In this document: in pieces, positions 18,879 through 42,110 of the stretch
How positions within the stretch are numbered: position 1 is the stretch's first letter
Layout: each line of letters begins with the position of its first letter
Assembly: GCF_000176155.1 (NCBI RefSeq)
Contig: NZ_ACZO01000008.1
Location: 62,001 to 126,000 of the forward strand
Reading direction: 5' to 3'
From: Vibrio metschnikovii CIP 69.14
GTDB lineage: Bacteria > Pseudomonadota > Gammaproteobacteria > Enterobacterales > Vibrionaceae
DNA length: 64,000 bases
Position numbers and translations under genes: made by a program
Notes under the pieces: model-generated
Told to the model about the DNA's origin: nothing
The model's input: only the letters and a program-made list of their open reading frames with translations
Database searches by the model: none

Positions 18879-19709
18879 CTAACCCTTAGCGCCATATAAA
18901 TTTTCATAACAGTAATTGGTCGCTTCAATGTAGCCCTCAACACTGCCGCAATCAAAACGCTGGCCCTTAAACTTATAGGCCAATACACAACCGGATTTGG
19001 CTTGCTTTAACAGCGCATCAGTAATTTGAATCTCGCCACCTTTACCCGGCTCAGTTTGCTCGATCAGCTCAAAAATATCCGGCGTTAAAATATAGCGGCC
19101 AATAATCGCTAGGTTACTTGGCGCCGTGCCTGGCTCAGGTTTCTCAACCATGGTATCAACTCGATAAATATCATCTTTGATCATTTCACCAGCAATCACG
19201 CCATACTTATGAGTTTCATCTTCAGGCACTTCTTGCACGGCAATGATTGAACAACGAAACTGGTTATATAAAGCCACCATTTGCGCTAATACCCCTTGCT
19301 CAGGATTAACACATAAATCATCCGCTAACACCACCGCAAAAGGATTATCACCAATCAAAGGCTGGCCGGTTAAAATTGCATGACCTAAACCTTTCATTTC
19401 ACGTTGGCGGATATAAGTAAAGTTGGCCGCATCAATCAGTGAGCGAATACCGGTTAAGAGATTCTCTTTGTTAGTGCCACTGATCTGATGTTCTAATTCA
19501 TAGTTTTTATCAAAGTGATCCATTAAGACATTTTTTCCACGCCCAGTGACCACACACATATCGGTCATCCCCGCCTGAATGGCCTCATCAACGCCGTATT
19601 CAATTAAGGGCTTGTTGACAACCGGCATCATTTCTTTAGGCATTGATTTGGTGGCAGGTAAAAAGCGGGTGCCGTAGCCAGCGGCAGGAAATAAGCATTT
19701 TTTAATCAT
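18879..19709 (-). CDS. galU: UTP-glucose-1-phosphate uridylyltransferase GalU
   Basis: A 276-residue nucleotidyltransferase. The N-terminal signature AAGYGTRFLPATKSMPKEM binds nucleotide and phosphate. VEKPEPG and GRYILTP are the usual downstream motifs, and KGGEIQITDAL is diagnostic for GalU. It makes UDP-glucose from UTP and glucose-1-phosphate. UDP-glucose feeds the ugd gene two places upstream and general LPS/capsule synthesis. It is the last gene of the long minus-strand polysaccharide run, and the intergenic spaces on both sides contain repeats. Confidence 0.95.
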   Translation of the reverse strand: MIKKCLFPAAGYGTRFLPATKSMPKEMMPVVNKPLIEYGVDEAIQAGMTDMCVVTGRGKNVLMDHFDKNYELEHQISGTNKENLLTGIRSLIDAANFTYIRQREMKGLGHAILTGQPLIGDNPFAVVLADDLCVNPEQGVLAQMVALYNQFRCSIIAVQEVPEDETHKYGVIAGEMIKDDIYRVDTMVEKPEPGTAPSNLAIIGRYILTPDIFELIEQTEPGKGGEIQITDALLKQAKSGCVLAYKFKGQRFDCGSVEGYIEATNYCYENLYGAKG

Positions 19710-19723
19710 AATAATAACTTACT

Positions 19724-19763
19724 GGGTAATGGGTAATGGTTAATGGTTAATGGTTAATGGTTA
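19724..19763. repeat. Tandem TTAATGG repeat
   Basis: Five tandem copies of a 7-bp unit (GGGTAAT, then TGGTTAA repeated) upstream of galU. The same TTAATGGT/GAATGGT theme recurs inside rfbB (38984-39033) and inside the fdtB gene (34964-34982). Confidence 0.75.
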
Positions 19764-19782
19764 TAGGATCCTAGGTCCTAGG
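19764..19782. repeat. CCTAGG-rich repeat between galU and the epimerase gene
   Basis: TAGGATCCTAGGTCCTAGG, directly after the TTAATGG tandem array. It is followed by AAAACAACACTCTCA, which is also found before the third REP-like copy (22439-22455), so the repeats travel as compound blocks. Confidence 0.7.
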
Positions 19783-19880
19783 AAAACAACACTCTCAGGT
19801 TTGGCATACATACTCACGTTTGGCATCCGCATTCATCAACGTCATCGGAGCTCAAATACAGCATCTGCACTTACGTTCGT

Positions 19881-19937
19881 CATCCCCGCGTAGGCGGGGA
19901 TCCATTCTGCCACATACGCCAAGTGGTTGGGTGAGCG
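19881..19937. repeat. REP-like repeat, copy 2
   Basis: The core CATCCCCGCGTAGGCGGGG is followed by ATCCATTCTGCCACATACG and CCAAGTGGTTGGGTGAGCG. It is nearly identical to copy 3 at 22463, and its left half to copy 1 at 18816. Confidence 0.75.
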
Positions 19938-20080: not shown

Positions 20081-21085
20081 TCATAGTTTATAAAACTCGC
20101 GATACCAATTAATAAACTCCGCCACACCTTCTTTGACACCAACCCGTGGGCGATAACCTGTGGCCGTAAATAAATCTTCGGTATCTGCGTAAGTTTGATA
20201 AACATCCCCTGGTTGCATACCACGGAAGTTTTTCTTGGCTTCAATGCCAAGTTGATCTTCAATCGCTTTAACAAATTCCATCAAATTAATTGGCGAACCA
20301 TGACCAATGTTATAAATCGCGTAAGGGGCTGAGCTGGTCGCTGGCGTGCCAGATTCTACCGTCCAAGCCGCATTACGAGTTGGTAGCACATCTGCAATGC
20401 GTACTACGCCCTCAACAATATCGTCAACATGGGTAAAATCACGCCACATATCACCATGGTTATTAATATCTATGGTTTCGCCCGCTAAAATCTTCTTGGT
20501 AAAGATAAATGGAGCCATATCAGGACGCCCCCAAGAACCATAGACAGTAAAAAAGCGCAACCCCGTGGTCGGAATATCGTAAAGGTGCGAATAACTGTGC
20601 GCCATTAGCTCATTAGATTTTTTAGTGGCTGCATATAACGAGACTGGGTGATCGACCGAGTCAGAAGTCGCGAAAGGGACTTTAGCATTTAAGCCATACA
20701 CAGAGCTGGACGAAGCGTAGACTAGATGGCCCACTTTATTTTGTCGGCAACCTTCAAGAATATTCAGATGACCGACCAAGTTTGAATCGGCGTAAGCATG
20801 AGGGTTTTCAAGTGAATAACGTACCCCGGCTTGCGCGGCAAGGTGAATCACGCGCTCAAACTTCTCTTGTTCGAAAAGCTGCGCCATGGCAGCACGATCA
20901 GCGATATCGAGTTGAATAAAACGAAATAGCGGGTGGTCAATCCGTGCCAGTCTGGCGTGTTTTAGATTAACATCGTAATAGTCGTTGATATTATCAATGC
21001 CAACCACATGATGGCCTTGGTCGGTCAATTTTTTAACGGTGGCGCTACCAATAAAGCCAGCAGCACCAGTAACTAGATATTTCAT
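20081..21085 (-). CDS. NAD-dependent epimerase, probable UDP-glucuronate 4-epimerase
   Basis: A 334-residue extended short-chain dehydrogenase. TGAAGFIG (6-13) binds NAD, SSSSVYG is the substrate motif, and Tyr151 and Lys155 in YAATKKSNE are catalytic. The N-terminal IDNINDYYDVNLKHARL and the RFFTVYGSWGRPDMA segment are typical of the CapI/Gla group of UDP-glucuronate 4-epimerases, which make UDP-galacturonate. It sits between galU and ugd, so the three genes can convert glucose-1-phosphate to UDP-GlcA and UDP-GalA for the polysaccharide. UDP-glucose 4-epimerase activity is a less likely alternative. Repeat blocks occupy the spaces on both sides. Confidence 0.85.
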   Translation of the reverse strand: MKYLVTGAAGFIGSATVKKLTDQGHHVVGIDNINDYYDVNLKHARLARIDHPLFRFIQLDIADRAAMAQLFEQEKFERVIHLAAQAGVRYSLENPHAYADSNLVGHLNILEGCRQNKVGHLVYASSSSVYGLNAKVPFATSDSVDHPVSLYAATKKSNELMAHSYSHLYDIPTTGLRFFTVYGSWGRPDMAPFIFTKKILAGETIDINNHGDMWRDFTHVDDIVEGVVRIADVLPTRNAAWTVESGTPATSSAPYAIYNIGHGSPINLMEFVKAIEDQLGIEAKKNFRGMQPGDVYQTYADTEDLFTATGYRPRVGVKEGVAEFINWYREFYKL

Positions 21086-33444: not shown

Positions 33445-34695
33445 TTAGCTTGAGAATCTTTTAACATTCAAAAACATAAATATGAAAAGAAATGTATAAT
33501 TTATTAGATAAGCAAATACTACTCCACTTCCTTCTAATATTGGTACAAGTAAGAATGTCAATGAAACAAAACCTAATGAAAAAAACACCTGAGAAAAGAT
33601 AAACCACTTTGTTGCCCCACGAGATATCATGGGATAGGCATACAAAAAACTCGCAATTTTCATCACATCACCGCACAGCTGTATGGCAAAAAGGTCACGT
33701 GCGGGTTTAAATTCTTCGGTAAATAGTAACCAAATAGCGACATCACGCAGTAAATAAACCCCTAGCGCCAATACCATTACAATCGGCAAGATCACTCGTG
33801 CTGTTTTGTGGATTTCGCTGACAATGGCATCAACACCTTTTAATGAAGCAAGTCTCGGTAGGTAATAAGTACTCAACGCCATGGTGATTACCCCAAGATA
33901 AACTTCAGATATTTTCCAGACAGCTTGCCAATGACCAGTAGAATCCCAGCCAACTTGTGAGATCAAAATATTACGCACTAAAATCAAAGAAATAGGTACA
34001 GTCAGTGCGCTGGTTAATGCCATAAGCATATAACCTAATATAGCCTTACGTGCTGCTTTGTCTTTTCCTCCCCACCAGTAAGTGACTTTCATCCAAGGTT
34101 GACGTAAATTAGCAACTAACATCACCAATCCAATCAACGCAGATTGCATTGAAGCCGCAAGTAATGCTCCTTCAATGTTCGCCGCAATAATTAAGCTAAC
34201 CATTACCGTGGAAGAGATTAAGGTGGAAAGCATCCCTAATCCCACATAACGGCGATATTGTTGCTGACCATTAATGACCGAGTTACACAATGTTCCTAAA
34301 GCGGAGAAGGGTAAAACACTGACCGTGACAATCACAATCCAAGCGAGTGCAGGATCGTGCAATAGCCAGCTGGCAATTTGGGTTGAAAACAATAAGCCAA
34401 TCGGTAGTGCAAAACAGGTAACAATGGCAACCCAATAAAGGGATGCTTGCCACCAAGGGGCACAAGCGGCAAATCCCTGCTTATGATGCTCAGCAGTAAA
34501 ACGCACCACGCCAGCACCAGTTGGCGCATTAATGACACCATTTAAACTGCTGACCATGCTTTGCACTTGGCCAAGCATCGCCATTCCCGTTGGCCCAGTA
34601 TACACGGCAACAACTTTTGCAATCACAAACCCCATTGCCATACGTAACAAGGTCAACAGCCCCGTCATGGCTGAGACTTTTAATAAACGTTTCAC
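33445..34695 (-). CDS. wzx: O-antigen/capsule flippase Wzx
   Basis: A 416-residue inner-membrane protein of the MOP/PST superfamily with about twelve helices. It carries the [20 protein letters not shown] and [14 protein letters not shown] segments that characterise WzxE-type O-antigen translocases. It would flip the undecaprenyl-diphosphate-linked repeat unit to the periplasm for polymerisation. Base composition is nearer the rest of the chromosome than the AT-rich block that follows, apart from its last 100 bp. The start overlaps the end of the aminotransferase gene by 4 bp, linking it to the dTDP-sugar genes. Confidence 0.92.
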
Positions 34696-35834
34696 GCTTT
34701 AAAGCCGTTCATCACAGTAATAACCTGTTGCACTTGCTCATCACTCATGGTTGGGTCAAGGGGCAAAGAAATCACTTGTTGATGGATCATTTCCGTTAAT
34801 GGTTTCGATTGCGAGTTCCACTGTGCATACGCCTGCTGCTGATGCGGTGGGATCGGATAATGGATTAAGGTTTGTATCTCGTGCTTTGTTAACCACTCCT
34901 GTAGCGCTTCACGTTGCTGACAACGCACTACGAACAAATGCCAAACATGGGATTGATAATGCTGAATGGTTAATGGTGAATACTGCAAGGCAAATGCATC
35001 GGCATCAATCGGTAATACAATATACGGATTATTAATACCCTCACAATACATAGCAGCGATTTGTTGTCTACGTGCCGTATCACTGTCTAAATGCGCCAAC
35101 TTGACCCGTAACATCGCGGCTTGAATTTCATCTAGGCGGCTATTAACACCTTGGTAAAGGTTTTCATACTTTTTATGTGAACCATAGTTACGCAGCGCTT
35201 TTAAAGTATCGGCTAACTGATCATCATTGGTGGTAATCGCTCCCGCATCGCCTAGTGCACCGAGATTTTTTCCTGGGTAAAAACTAAACCCCGCCGCATG
35301 CCCCCAATTACCGGCACGCTGGCCATTAATTTCTGCGCCATGCGCTTGCGCACAATCTTCTAGCACTAATAAATCATGCTCTTGAGCAATTTGCATAATC
35401 TCAGCCATCGGCGAGATTAAACCATACAGATGCACCGGAAGAATCGCTTTAGTCTTGGGTGTGATCGCCGCTTGAATACCTTCTTGGCTCAAGTTATAGG
35501 TATTGATATCCGGTTCAACCAGTACTGGCGTTAAGCGATTTTCAGTAATGGCTAAAACACTGGCAATGTAAGTATTCGCTGGGACAATCACTTCATCCCC
35601 CTCTTGCAACTTACCTAACTCTTTCCACGCGCGTAGCACTAAGATTAACGCATCAAGACCATTCGCTACGCCAATTGCGTGTTTAGTGCCACAATAGGCG
35701 GCAAATTCGGCTTCAAACTGCTGTAATTCTTGACCTTGAATATACCAGCCAGAGTCAATCACCCGTGCACAAGCTTGTTTGAGTTGTTGTTGGTACTGTT
35801 GATTGATTGATTTTAAATCTAAAAAATTAATCAT
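34692..35834 (-). CDS. fdtB: DegT/DnrJ/EryC1/StrS aminotransferase (FdtB/QdtB-like)
   Basis: A 380-residue PLP-dependent sugar aminotransferase. The PLP lysine is in [24 protein letters not shown] holds the cofactor Asp, and [16 protein letters not shown] is the substrate part. It matches enzymes that aminate C3 of dTDP-3-keto-6-deoxyhexose (FdtB/QdtB), consistent with fdtA nearby. The ATG at 35834 overlaps the MaoC stop (ATGATTAA) and begins [14 protein letters not shown]; an upstream in-frame start at 35867 is less likely. Residues about 277-295 ([14 protein letters not shown]) look like an insertion relative to the family and coincide with a TTAATGGT-type repeat in the DNA. Confidence 0.87.
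34964..34982. repeat. TTAATGGT-type repeat inside the fdtB coding sequence
   Basis: GAATGGTTAATGGTGAATA lies in the coding sequence and corresponds to the residues SPLTIQH. It matches one arm of the palindrome inside rfbB (38984-39033) and the tandem array at 19724. Confidence 0.65.
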
Positions 35835-36246
35835 TTTTATTCTCTGGAATATATATTTCGGCTTCACCAGTAATTACTTTGTGCCGACCTACTTTACAAA
35901 AGGTATTAAAAAATACTCGTCTTTTCTCTTTATCAATTCGCTCGATGACAACCGTAGCTGTAACAGTATCATCAATATAAACTGGTTTTCTAAATTTTAA
36001 CGTCTGTGAAACATAAACACAGCCTTCTCCTGGTAGTTTTGTACCAAAAAGAGCGGAAAAAAAGCTAGAGCTGATCATGCCATGCGCTATTCTCTTCTTA
36101 AATCGTGACTTTTCAGCATATTCTTTATCCATATGGACAGGATTTCTATCTCCCGATATACCAGCAAATGACTTAATATCTGAATCAGAAATCGTTTGTG
36201 AGTAAGAAGCACTCATTCCCACTTGTAAATCTTGGATATCATACAT
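35827..36246 (-). CDS. MaoC-like (R)-specific enoyl-CoA hydratase family protein
   Basis: A 139-residue hot-dog-fold protein. The hydratase motif reads [21 protein letters not shown], giving the Asp and His of the (R)-hydratase dyad, and [20 protein letters not shown] follows as usual. Single-domain MaoC/PhaJ enzymes hydrate crotonyl-CoA-type thioesters to (R)-3-hydroxyacyl-CoA. Here it lies between an N-acyltransferase and a sugar aminotransferase, with overlaps of 8 bp on both sides. It therefore probably makes a hydroxyacyl donor, for example 3-hydroxybutyryl-CoA, for the amino sugar. That role is inferred from context. Another possibility is a diverged thioesterase or dehydratase function. 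Confidence 0.83.
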
Positions 36247-38264: not shown

Positions 38265-38270
38265 AAAAAA

Positions 38271-38302
38271 TAGGTCCTAGGTCCTAGGTCCTAGGTCCTA
38301 GG
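38271..38302. repeat. Tandem CCTAGGT array between rfbB and rfbA
   Basis: Four to five perfect head-to-tail copies of the 7-bp unit TAGGTCC, then CTAGGGAAAAGCTAGGG. This is the cleanest member of the CTAGG repeat family in the window. Confidence 0.85.
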
Positions 38303-38346
38303 GAAAAGCTAGGGCATAGAACCAGAGATTTGAAAAAACTTGAAAG

Positions 38347-39489
38347 CTAATTTACGCCTAATCGTTCACGTTGGTAGCTACCATCTTGCACATTTTGGCA
38401 CCATTGTTGATTATCTAAATACCATTGCACGGTTTTTAGCAGTCCGGTTTCAAACGTTTCAAGTGGCGTCCAACCAAGTTCATTTTGCATTTTACTTGCA
38501 TCAATCGCATAGCGTCGATCGTGACCAGGACGGTCTTGTACGTAAGTAATTTGCTCGGCATATGGTCTAGCCTTGGGCACTAAGGTATCTAGAATTGAAC
38601 AGATTGCTTGCACGACTTCTAAATTTTGCTTTTCGTTATGCCCACCGATGTTGTAGGTTTCCCCCACTTTGCCTTCTGTTACCACTTTGTAAAGTGCACG
38701 AGCATGATCTTCAACAAACAACCAATCACGAATTTGATCCCCTTTGCCATAAATTGGAAGGTCTTTGCCCTCTAGCGCGTTCAGAATCACCAAGGGGATC
38801 AGTTTTTCAGGGAAATGATACGGACCATAATTATTTGAGCAGTTAGTAACTATGGTGGGTAAACCATAAGTACGTAGCCACGCGCGAACTAAATGATCGG
38901 AGGAAGCTTTAGAGGCTGAATACGGGCTTGATGGAGCATAAGCGGTGGTTTCAGTAAACAGCGGCAGATGTGGCAATGAATTATTAATGCTTAATGTTGA
39001 ATTGTCTTGAGTTAATTCACCATTCACCATTAAACATTCATCATTATTCTCAACTTCATCTGGATGTGGCAGGTCACCATACACTTCATCGGTTGAAATA
39101 TGATGGAAGCGAAACGCGGCTTTATGCTCTTCGTCTAAGCGATTCCAATAACTACGGGTGGCTTCTAATAGCGTATAAGTACCGACAATATTAGTTTCAA
39201 TAAAAGCGGCAGGGCCATCGATAGAACGGTCTACATGAGACTCAGCAGCCAAGTGCATGACTGCATCCGGTTGATGCTGAGCAAAGACGCGATCCAATTC
39301 AGCGCGGTTACAAATGTCCACTTGCTCAAAGGCATAGCGTTCACTGTCTGCGATCAAGGCTAACGATTCTAGATTGCCTGCGTAGGTCAACTTATCAAGG
39401 TTAACCACGCTATCTTGGGTATTTTGAATAATATGGCGAATAACTGCGGAGCCAATAAAGCCCGCGCCACCGGTGACAAGAATTTTCAT
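38347..39489 (-). CDS. rfbB: dTDP-glucose 4,6-dehydratase RfbB/RmlB with an in-frame insertion
   Basis: A 380-residue dehydratase, longer than the usual 350-361. [15 protein letters not shown] binds [20 protein letters not shown] and [15 protein letters not shown] (catalytic Tyr and Lys) are intact. It makes dTDP-4-keto-6-deoxyglucose. Where E. coli RmlB reads NNTEELPLFTE, this protein has about 23 extra residues (about 152-174, [19 protein letters not shown] then SLPH). The extra 69 bp (38968-39036) contain a 50-bp palindrome of TTAATGGTGAATGGTGAATT type and keep the frame open. The insertion lies in a surface loop before the active-site helix, so the enzyme may still work. Confidence 0.93.
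38984..39033. repeat. Palindromic TTAATG element inserted inside rfbB
   Basis: The arms are 20 bp: TTAATGCTTAATGTTGAATT at 38984-39003 and the inverted AATTCACCATTCACCATTAA at 39014-39033. They match at 17 of 20 positions around a 10-base loop. The element corresponds to the extra residues in RfbB. It resembles the repeats at 19724 and 34964. Confidence 0.8.
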
Positions 39490-39491
39490 TA

Positions 39492-40502
39492 TTATTTCCT
39501 GAAAAAGGTTCTAGGTTCTAGGTCCTCAGTATCTTCTTTCCTAAACGCAAATCTGACCAAAACAATCGCTACGCCAAGCATGCCGCCGAGTAGCGTGCCT
39601 AACACACAAATCAGTGCGCGTTTCGGGCCATCTTTTAGCTCTGGCACGACTGCTGGGTCAATCAGCTTAAATACAAACTCATCTTGCGCTTCCGCCAACA
39701 TCAGGCTTTTGGTTTGTTCTTCAATTAGGGAGTAAAAAGTCGCTTGCATGGCGGCAATGGAGGTGCGTTGCAGCTGCTCTTGCAAATAAGCGAGGTTTCT
39801 AGTCGCCTCAGTAATGGTGCGCTGACGCATCACTTGGTTAATATCATCCACCAATAAACTGACCCACTGCTGGGCAATATAAGGGGACAAGTGAGTAATA
39901 CTGATTGTATATAAGCCGTTATCGCGACTGGAATTGACGCTAAACATCTCTTTAAAGTCTTGAATCGCCTCTTGAGCGGTGGGCTCAGCGCCACGCAAGC
40001 CTTGCGGTTCACGCAACCAAGTTTGGGTTTGCGAGTCGTAAATCTCTTGATTAATCACTAACTGGTTATTATCTGCATCCCATTCTTTGGTTGCCATTAA
40101 CGGCACCCAGAGATTATGCTTATCAATAAAGTATTCTAAAAACTGACGAGATTGCATAATTTGTGCCGCCAGATCGGTTTGAGTAATTTTACCACTACCC
40201 AAATTAACGCCTCCTAACGCCGCTAAGCCACCCAGTTGACCTGCCATCCGCGAGAGACCGCCTCCTTCTCCGCTGTCTGCCGGAGCCAATAAAGCATCGG
40301 CTTTATAAGTATTAGGTTGACTAAGGGCGTATAACACCGCACCGACGGCAAAGATGAAGGTGGTGGCGATGATGATCCATTTGCCTTTCCAGAGGGCGAT
40401 GAAGAGTTCGCGTAAGTCGATTTCGTCATCGTGCCGCGGCAGCGGCGCGAATTGCGCATCTGGTTGGTATGGTGGGTTGTTTTGGGTCATTTGTGTGTTC
40501 AT
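39492..40502 (-). CDS. wzz: Polysaccharide chain-length regulator Wzz
   Basis: A 336-residue inner-membrane protein with the Wzz/PCP-1 layout. The first membrane helix (about residues 37-58, [19 protein letters not shown]) is preceded by [17 protein letters not shown] large periplasmic domain with coiled-coil character ([20 protein letters not shown]) follows, and a second helix near 298-318 ([20 protein letters not shown]) ends it. It sets the modal length of Wzy-made polymer. The final residues LEPRTFFRK-stop are encoded by a GGTTCTAGGTTCTAGG repeat, so the natural C-terminus has been replaced or extended by the repeat. No Wzc kinase domain is attached. Confidence 0.92.
39505..39529. repeat. 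GGTTCTAGG repeat overlapping the wzz stop region
   Basis: AAGGTTCTAGGTTCTAGGTC then CTCAG. It encodes the last residues of Wzz in the minus direction. Same family as copies at 9074, 45084 and 50393. Confidence 0.7.
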
Positions 40503-40781: not shown

Positions 40782-42110
40782 CACGGAAATCGCATGAATA
40801 CCCCCGTCATTCAAGGGCTCCAAGTACCTTACCTAAGTACTCCACATCCATCGCGCACTTCATTCGTTTGCGTTGAATGCCTCCCTTAAAGCTCGTTTCT
40901 TGCTTTAAAAGGTTCAAACATACTTGCCTGATCCTTGAAAAAGCCTCTGCGCGATCATCGACTCGAATGCGACATGCATCTTCTCTAAAAGTAACATCAA
41001 GTTGCCAGTGCATCGACTCAATTCCCCAGTGAGAACGCGTTGCATCATGTAACTCTTTCGCACTGAGTTTTTTCGAGCTGATGTAGAAGCGGACAGACAT
41101 ATCTTGCTCTGTCGCACGCTCTTCTGTTTTACGCATGTTGACCATGATGCCGACACTTTTCAGGTTTGGCCATTCAAGCTCTAAATCACCTAAAAATGAC
41201 AACTCATGCGTGACTAATGCACAGCGTGTTTCCTCGCGGCCATGCCCTTTTTCTTGGCTCGCATAACTGTCGCCCTCTGCAAACTCCTGCAACATCGAAG
41301 GGCGATAAAACTCACCTATTGCTTTCTCTAACGAGCCTTGGTTTCCCTTTACAGCAAGTAAGTAATCGGCATTTTTATCGATTATCTTTTGCGCGATTTT
41401 TCTTTGACAACCCATAGCATCAATCGTCACCAAACAACCAGAAATATTTAGCAATTCCAACAACTTAGGTATTTCTGTGATTTCATTGGTTTTTGCATTC
41501 ACCTTAGATTGACCAAGACAAAGCCCTTGTGCGGTTGCAAATGCATTGACCATATGAATTGCAGAGCGTTCTTCAGATTTGTTATAAGAGCCGCGAACGG
41601 TTTTACCATCGATTGCAACCACTTCGCCATCTGTGATTTGATGACAATCTTTCATCCAACTAATGAACGCTTTTTGCATCGCTGACGGGCTCACCATCCC
41701 CATAACGCGAGCGATGGTATCTGACGACGGAATACCATTCTCAAAATCACCCAATGATTTAAGAAAATCGGTTCGGCTTTCACCAAAATCACAGATACCT
41801 TCCCAGGTATCAAAGCCGGAGAGCACACCACAGATCGTCAACAAAATAATGTCTGACAATTTGTGTTCTACCTTAGCGGCTTGACGGTAATCTTTTATCA
41901 CTTCGAAATGCATAAATGGGTTCGTTATTGTCGTCATAATTTGGCTCCGTTTAAGTACAGAACCATTAAAAAACACTCAAAATGATCTACAAATTGATCC
42001 TTAATGAGTTTCCAATATTGTGATGGATGCTAAAGAAATACCTTGTAAATTAGAAGGCACTAATTTGACGAAAACCCTTTAAAAATAGGCATATTCATGC
42101 GATTTCCCTG
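40782..42110 (-). mobile_element. ISAs1-family insertion sequence (copy 2)
   Basis: A 1329-bp element. The ends are CACGGAAATCGCATGAATAC at 40782 and, reversed from 42110, CAGGGAAATCGCATGAATAT. They are bordered by a perfect 10-bp duplication (CCAAGTGAGC). It splits the four-helix-bundle gene. The intact duplication and open transposase frame point to a fairly recent insertion. Confidence 0.95.
40807..41937 (-). CDS. ISAs1-family (H-repeat) transposase
   Basis: A 376-residue DDE transposase. FMHFEVIKDYRQAAKVEHKL starts the family N-terminus, and VAIDGKTVRGSYNK and VTIDAMGCQRKIAQKI hold the catalytic aspartates. SMHWQLDVTFREDACR is the conserved C-terminal region. The ATG at 41937 follows GGAG at good spacing; the frame opens earlier at 41976, but that part is outside the family homology. 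The gene is intact. It is a different element from that at 27504, with clearly diverged sequence. Confidence 0.93.
   Translation of the reverse strand: MTTITNPFMHFEVIKDYRQAAKVEHKLSDIILLTICGVLSGFDTWEGICDFGESRTDFLKSLGDFENGIPSSDTIARVMGMVSPSAMQKAFISWMKDCHQITDGEVVAIDGKTVRGSYNKSEERSAIHMVNAFATAQGLCLGQSKVNAKTNEITEIPKLLELLNISGCLVTIDAMGCQRKIAQKIIDKNADYLLAVKGNQGSLEKAIGEFYRPSMLQEFAEGDSYASQEKGHGREETRCALVTHELSFLGDLELEWPNLKSVGIMVNMRKTEERATEQDMSVRFYISSKKLSAKELHDATRSHWGIESMHWQLDVTFREDACRIRVDDRAEAFSRIRQVCLNLLKQETSFKGGIQRKRMKCAMDVEYLGKVLGALE

Follow-up and report, generated by a model that had tools for sequence, protein, structure and literature searches.

Palindromic repeat DNA in frame within a loop of RmlB in Vibrio metschnikovii, and other repeats in two loops of the same enzyme in further bacteria

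Among the closest described systems, the Rickettsia palindromic elements (RPEs) are palindromic DNA that lies in frame within open reading frames (ORFs) and gives a tolerated peptide, and they form families present in many genes of one genome (PMC3733652, in the parts cited here). The same parts of that paper describe GTAG/CGTC REPs within ORFs, as well as a case in which recB of two Xanthomonas species is occupied at nearly the same site by REPs that differ (Di Nocera et al. 2013), and its main text makes no mention of dehydratase, rfbB, rmlB, O-antigen, Marinobacter or polysaccharide. Repeats with a 7-bp unit are also known within genes. The heptamer GGGAATC of Xanthomonas and Nostoc is mostly intergenic, with some copies intragenic and inverted pairs noted (PMC4692102), TAACTGA of Beggiatoaceae is mostly intergenic with some copies within ORFs (PMC4679880), and Geobacter metallireducens has four or five tandem heptanucleotides, one family between and within genes, which are interpreted there as regulatory (PMC2700814, each paper in the parts cited here). 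Those parts of PMC4692102 and PMC4679880 do not describe repeats that recur in the loops of one enzyme, and RmlB is not mentioned in the cited parts of any of these four papers.

The locus that we consider here is rfbB (rmlB) in a 64,000-nucleotide stretch of Vibrio metschnikovii CIP 69.14, called the window below. As in the RPEs, a palindrome lies in frame within a protein-coding gene; unlike the RPEs, which have many copies across genes and spacers of one genome, the window element is low-copy, and the loops of one enzyme host many families across genera. It lies within an ORF as some GTAG/CGTC REPs do, but no GTAG or CGTC is present at its stem end, as read from the sequence. Its tandem 7-bp period is that of the heptameric repeats, although its units differ from GGGAATC, from TAACTGA and from those of Geobacter metallireducens. 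Intragenic REPs are thus already known, whereas we did not find the recurrent, multi-family use of one enzyme's loops in print, and the open-licence literature yielded nothing on recurrent repeat insertions in RmlB. The features at rfbB are as follows (window positions).

38347-39489, minus strand: rfbB/rmlB, dTDP-glucose 4,6-dehydratase, intact ORF of 380 aa (NCBIfam NF007490)
38968-39036, minus strand: loop A insert, in frame, palindromic 7-bp-repeat DNA, encoding residues 152-174
38976-39041, no strand: imperfect palindrome at its full ungapped extension, the core arms lying inside 38984-39033
39015-39046, no strand: one palindrome arm as a period-7 run (period-7 scan)

The window rfbB scores 740 bits against NF007490, above the family cut-off of 649. 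A single residue of Salmonella RmlB (PDB accession code: 1g1a) stands opposite residues 150-173 of the window protein, which confirms the roughly 23 extra residues counted in the preliminary description, made from the sequence alone. The palindrome that it placed in the extra 69 bp is also there: the core of 50 bp lies at 38984-39033, with 17 of the 20 arm positions paired, and among the 50 window ORFs with 150 aa or more it has the highest inverted-repeat score (13, with 11 for the next and a median of 7). As single-stranded DNA the 69-base insert folds at -10.9 kcal/mol (z -2.86), and 1 of 200 shuffles folds as well. A known structured RNA is ruled out as its identity, since an Rfam search of 38800-39200 gave one match only, at 19.3 bits against a gathering score of 48.

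Where does the insert lie in the protein? Loop A sits between the TDE motif (T133, D134, E135) and the YxxxK motif (Y190, K194), all of them invariant in an alignment of 35 rows that includes the window; loop B, which we shall need below, precedes the YVxDRPGH motif. In the AlphaFold2 model (35 sequences, mean pLDDT 85.5), residues 149-171 fall below 50 on a confident core, the character of a disordered loop, so that the structure model proposed in the preliminary description comes out in favour of its reading. Residues 84-90 and 374-380 are also of low confidence. The window RmlB with its insert is predicted to be active, and the insert would be neutral.

Related repeats lie at few other places in the window.

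19718-19771, no strand: intergenic TTAATGG array between ORFs 18879-19709 and 20081-21085
38267-38309, no strand: intergenic CCTAGGT 7-bp array at the rfbB-rfbA junction (period-7 scan)
34692-35867, minus strand: DegT/DnrJ-type sugar aminotransferase gene with a second 7-bp-repeat stretch (QdtB among the best PDB matches)
34956-34981, no strand: the 7-bp-repeat stretch in the aminotransferase gene, 26 nt, residues 296-304 (SPLTIQHYQ)

Period-7 runs of at least 17 matches in 21 occur at three window places (19718-19771, 38267-38309 and 39015-39046) and in none of ten first-order Markov simulations. The array at 19718-19771, to which the preliminary description had assigned a palindrome of the same type (at 19724), has the 7-bp unit in common with rfbB (TTAATGG/TGAATGG) but not the palindrome. 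The stretch at 34956-34981, a second one in frame that the preliminary description does not contain, matches the rfbB insert at 92% identity (genome search, E 5e-4) and runs on the opposite strand relative to the gene's sense; compared with PDB 5u1z and 7n63, the loop that holds it has 13-15 more residues. A genome-wide search for TTAATGGTKAATGG with at most one mismatch gives 12 matches versus 3 for the reversed control: the array accounts for three, rfbB and the aminotransferase gene (34956-34981) account for one each, and the other seven have a single mismatch. Because these seven have no further repeat units around them they are taken for chance, and the twelve matches are rejected as a dispersed family. 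The window element is not dispersed in its own genome, and its convincing relatives are limited to an aminotransferase gene and an intergenic array, both at this locus. The proposed genome-wide search thus ends at a few places, and the likeness to RPEs drawn from the sequence stands for a tolerated in-frame palindrome and falls for a dispersed family in this genome, for which reason the phrase "invades coding sequences" finds no demonstration here.

Some further repeats were observed in passing. Upstream of rfbB, the wzz-like gene ends in AGGTTCT-type 7-bp repeats (39492-39530), which encode its C-terminal tail. A TCATCCCCGCGTAGGCGGGGATCC palindrome at 19880-19903 resembles the loop B type of Vibrio G066 (listed below) and sits, two short overlapping ORFs aside, between ORFs 18879-19709 and 20081-21085.

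We turn to the relatives of the gene. RmlB at E <= 1e-150 is present in 127 of 196 Vibrio genomes (140 matches, the complete list), and, by net length plus the loops retrieved, a loop A insert of window size is found in only 2 of the 127, the window (1140 nt) and G131 (1125 nt). Both share the repeat DNA, so the contrary case, in which all close RmlB homologues would carry the insert without the repeat DNA, does not hold. A long loop A is found in the window, in G131 and on E. coli plasmids, and L003-L030 have a shorter one; among close relatives the alignment has the insert in the window and G131 and lacks it in L008. The open frame and this presence and absence among close relatives support the idea of a palindromic repeat in frame, tolerated as a peptide insert. 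Outside the loops, identity to the window rfbB is 86.3% for L008 (no insert), 84.1% for G131 (insert) and 82.0% for the E. coli plasmid gene (insert), and these genes form one clade with that of the window (SH-aLRT 97). The insert-free L008 is closer to the window than the insert-bearing G131, so the presence of the insert does not follow gene similarity. Over three gene pairs, the insert has 1, 0 and 1 silent changes in 19 codons; for the remainder of the gene the counts are 108/357, 104/356 and 135/356 (Fisher test, one-sided: P 0.011, 0.0017 and 0.0019, the three pairs being non-independent). From these comparisons, the insert that genes of this clade share seems more recent than the genes themselves.

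A rfbB with a nearly identical insert is found in 4 of 5,426 E. coli genomes, on plasmids in all four, and in 2 plasmid-collection records. At the 3' end and the rfbB-rfbA junction, 60/60, 59/59 and 31/32 compared bases are identical between the E. coli plasmid gene and the window; the plasmid junction carries a CCTAGGA array, and that of plasmid pLAU-OXA3 has an array similar to the window's. The distribution of the insert in the window clade suggests recent recombinational and lateral spread. An ISAs1-family transposase gene is also annotated near rfbB on the E. coli plasmid (L175, 5531-6670), and a 65% identical relative lies near rfbB in the window (40807-41976).

The next question is whether other bacteria have repeat DNA in the loops of RmlB. 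Beyond what the preliminary description saw, they do: taken together, loops A and B hold repeat DNA, either palindromic or made of 7-bp repeats, of at least eight types, the bacteria concerned being Vibrio, Aeromonadaceae and Marinobacter among others, and the types in all loops being assigned by eye.

Loop A, Oceanisphaera pacifica L044: palindrome of 7-bp repeats
Loop A, Marinobacter MAG L116: CCCTCTCCC/GGGAGAGGG
Loop A, MAG L052: GTAG-REP-like stem
Loop A, G754, G538, G630 and G594: repeat-bearing
Loop B, L044: 7-bp repeats
Loop B, MAG L052: ATCCTGCG/CGCAGGAT
Loop B, Enterobacter plasmid pK432-TEM: CCCTCGCCCC type
Loop B, Vibrio G066: ATTCCCGC/GCGGGAAT
Loop B, G530: GTAG type
Loop B, G511: GTGAGGA units

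By eye, GTAG stands beside the stems in G594, G530, G538 and loop A of L052, and CTAG takes its place in G630. One genome, G999, has two rfbB copies that are identical at 908 of 948 compared bases outside the loops (95.8%) and bear different repeats in both loops: copy one has a TTAACCA-type 7-bp repeat and a CCCTTCTCCC-type palindrome, and copy two has AATCCCG-type repeats in both. Both loops are filled, with a different repeat type in each, in L052, L268, L269 and L270. Related bacteria thus carry quite unlike repeats in loop A or in loop B, which gives both loops the appearance of recurrent landing sites for such DNA.

How common such loops are was surveyed with one genome per species and by net length, which hides short inserts; one of the parsed sets of loops comprises 70 hits among 80 loci. 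Among the matches listed, 18 of 150 in the order survey exceed the model by at least 30 nt (14 of the 18 with repeat-like loops), as do 11 of 150 in the phylum survey (7 of the 11 repeat-like). The richest family found, f262, contributes 34 to the order survey's 150 listed matches, 12 of these with repeat-like loops, the loops having been retrieved for 17 of the 34; it includes Oceanisphaera and, by tree position beside A. lusitana, probably also Aeromonas. Some long loops have no recognised repeat (L003, L048, L180, L181, L183-L185 and L204 among them), so ordinary length drift also occurs. G387 and G248, flagged by length, were set aside: their loop A is ordinary and loop B is common to both. 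Loop B peptides like NPHSRSGGNLGGF (L182, L185, L214, L217) are candidate decayed remains of an old ATTCCCGC palindrome insertion, which may be common to a wide RmlB clade.

Do the inserts have copies in their own genomes? Own-genome repeat matches were obtained for eight inserts in seven genomes, and five other tested inserts had no convincing match. Besides the insert itself, L052 has 25 matches for loop A (E <= 0.05) and 7 for loop B (E <= 0.03), and L116 has 12 at 11 places (E <= 0.03); the loop A insert of L044 has six outside rfbB (E <= 0.017) and a further one within the gene's own loop B; and 100-kb samples of G630, G530 and G594 hold 4, 6 and 1, with 0 in the reversed controls. The window insert has its match in the low-copy sense only. 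A second copy was not found in G754 (200 kb), G066 (100 kb) or the Enterobacter plasmid (75.7 kb), G538 gave a 14-nt match only (100-kb sample), and G511 a 15-nt match only, of a kind that one of five shuffled G511 controls also gave. In f262, copies were searched for one of the 12 repeat-bearing genes (the Oceanisphaera C37 gene, which is L044). By crude ORF calls, the other copies are intergenic in 4 of 5 examined (of 25) for L052 loop A, 5 of 5 (of 7) for L052 loop B, 9 of 10 places for L116, 5 of 6 for G530, 4 of 6 for L044 and 1 of 4 for G630, where one lies in a wzz-like ORF end and two in ORFs of about 100 aa; the single other copy of G594 falls close to the end of an ORF of 180 aa. In G630, the loop A repeat of rfbB recurs as a perfect copy of 29 nt some 60 bp upstream of the gene (G630:C1, about 1293429-1293457), in the wzz-like ORF end (PVGRIEQSEIRHP).

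The association of long loops with palindromes was counted in 155 genes, a set that is enriched for long loops because these were chosen for length. The best inverted repeat of the gene falls within loop A in 10 of 20 long-A genes versus 4 of 135 others (P 9e-8, the rows being related); for loop B, in its variable part, the counts are 5 of 18 among long-B genes and 5 of 130 among the others. On a tree of 154 RmlB rows (one of the 155 genes being outside it), built from sequences without the loops, a single label for inserts of any type (25 rows) takes 18 changes, at least nine of them forced by strongly supported branches, and it is more clustered than shuffled labels (mean 23.5 changes; 0 of 500 as low). 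As a control, a single-sequence rmlA query of 398 genomes gave, among the 150 matches listed, none that exceeds the query by at least 24 nt, the largest excess being 18 nt (G522); this controls for the operon and not for a protein with equally tolerant loops.

The inverted-repeat score by itself fails as a detector of such inserts: rfbB ranks first in the window and in none of seven other samples of 100 kb, where the genes outscoring it number 35 of 76 in G630, 7 of 76 in G530, 1 of 74 in G594, 21 of 73 in G754, 26 of 73 in G538, 10 of 73 in G066 and 5 of 70 in G511. In G594 and G538 the best inverted repeat of rfbB lies outside the insert. Another gene has different GTAG-type repeats at one loop in two Marinobacter genomes.

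G630 L231:10292-11773, minus strand: beta-CASP metallo-hydrolase gene
G530 L236:12011-13564, minus strand: beta-CASP metallo-hydrolase gene

Judged by these two genes, RmlB is not unique in such repeat-bearing loops.

We consider it quite probable that the window insert is a repeat-DNA copy that landed in frame in a disordered, dispensable surface loop of RmlB and was later spread by recombination and lateral transfer. The contrary possibility that nothing moved in, the 7-bp units having grown by slippage from a chance seed in the loop and the palindrome having arisen by template switching, is in our judgement unlikely. Arms made of 7-bp units are an easy product of slippage, the aminotransferase stretch is a one-armed 7-bp run, and the element has few copies in this genome; the 7-bp unit of the insert, however, also occurs in an intergenic array about 19 kb away, there is the 26-nt match at 92% about 4 kb away, and the GTAG, CCCTCTCC and other non-heptad inserts elsewhere match repeats of their own genomes. 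We find it decidedly improbable that the insert has been selected for a function, either as a hairpin in the rfb mRNA or DNA (attenuation, stability, a recombination point for the exchange of surface-sugar genes) or through its peptide. Such a role would fit the recurrence of different hairpins at the same two RmlB sites, the 7-bp arrays at a gene junction of the rfb locus and the finding of rfb genes on plasmids, but the insert sequences and their peptides are unrelated to one another, most of the listed RmlB have no long loop, and the ratio of nonsynonymous to silent changes, 6:2 in the insert versus 114:347 in the rest (P 0.004, pooled over the three non-independent pairs), is the opposite of peptide constraint.

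Variation in the length of loops A and B across the family, and the long loops without a repeat, would suit ordinary length drift with a coincidental palindrome. As a whole account we reject it as very improbable, for it is contradicted by the strength of the palindrome, by period-7 runs that are absent from the simulations, by the own-genome copies and by the shared insert DNA. An artefact of assembly or annotation is barely conceivable: the genome is a draft of 11 contigs, which is all that speaks for it, and a near-identical insert recurs in a second species as well as on complete plasmids of E. coli, while the window ORF is intact.

Under the landing of a repeat copy, a palindrome with 7-bp-repeat arms would have come to lie in frame in the RmlB surface loop, where it would have survived because loop A is disordered and dispensable. 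Repeat families that are otherwise mostly intergenic would occupy one or both loops in many gammaproteobacteria. Insertion would occur widely, copies elsewhere in the protein being presumably removed by selection, which would leave those in frame in dispensable loops; recombination would then move the filled loop. In the window lineage the insert would have spread with short rfbB tracts, by recombination and lateral transfer, also to E. coli plasmids, the direction of transfer that we infer. For the GTAG-type REPs, insertion aided by a putative RAYT transposase would be plausible (discussed in PMC3733652, in the parts cited here), and for palindromes of 7-bp repeats template switching or slippage would be the likely route. 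Whether loops A and B are in addition true hot spots, at which repeat DNA is inserted or exchanged beyond what tolerance explains, we regard as doubtful. The excess would come about because rml genes constantly change hosts and palindromes act as recombination or insertion points, so that each lineage would rewrite the loops with its own repeats.

The RmlB loops offer a natural series in which unrelated repeat DNA is inserted at two fixed sites of one well-studied enzyme. Controls are built in, as insert-free relatives and as two differently filled copies within one genome (G999). The entry of palindromes into genes, their neutrality and the birth of new peptide segments become testable on one assayable protein, and the insert would mark surface-sugar genes that pass between E. 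coli plasmids and vibrios or relatives of these.
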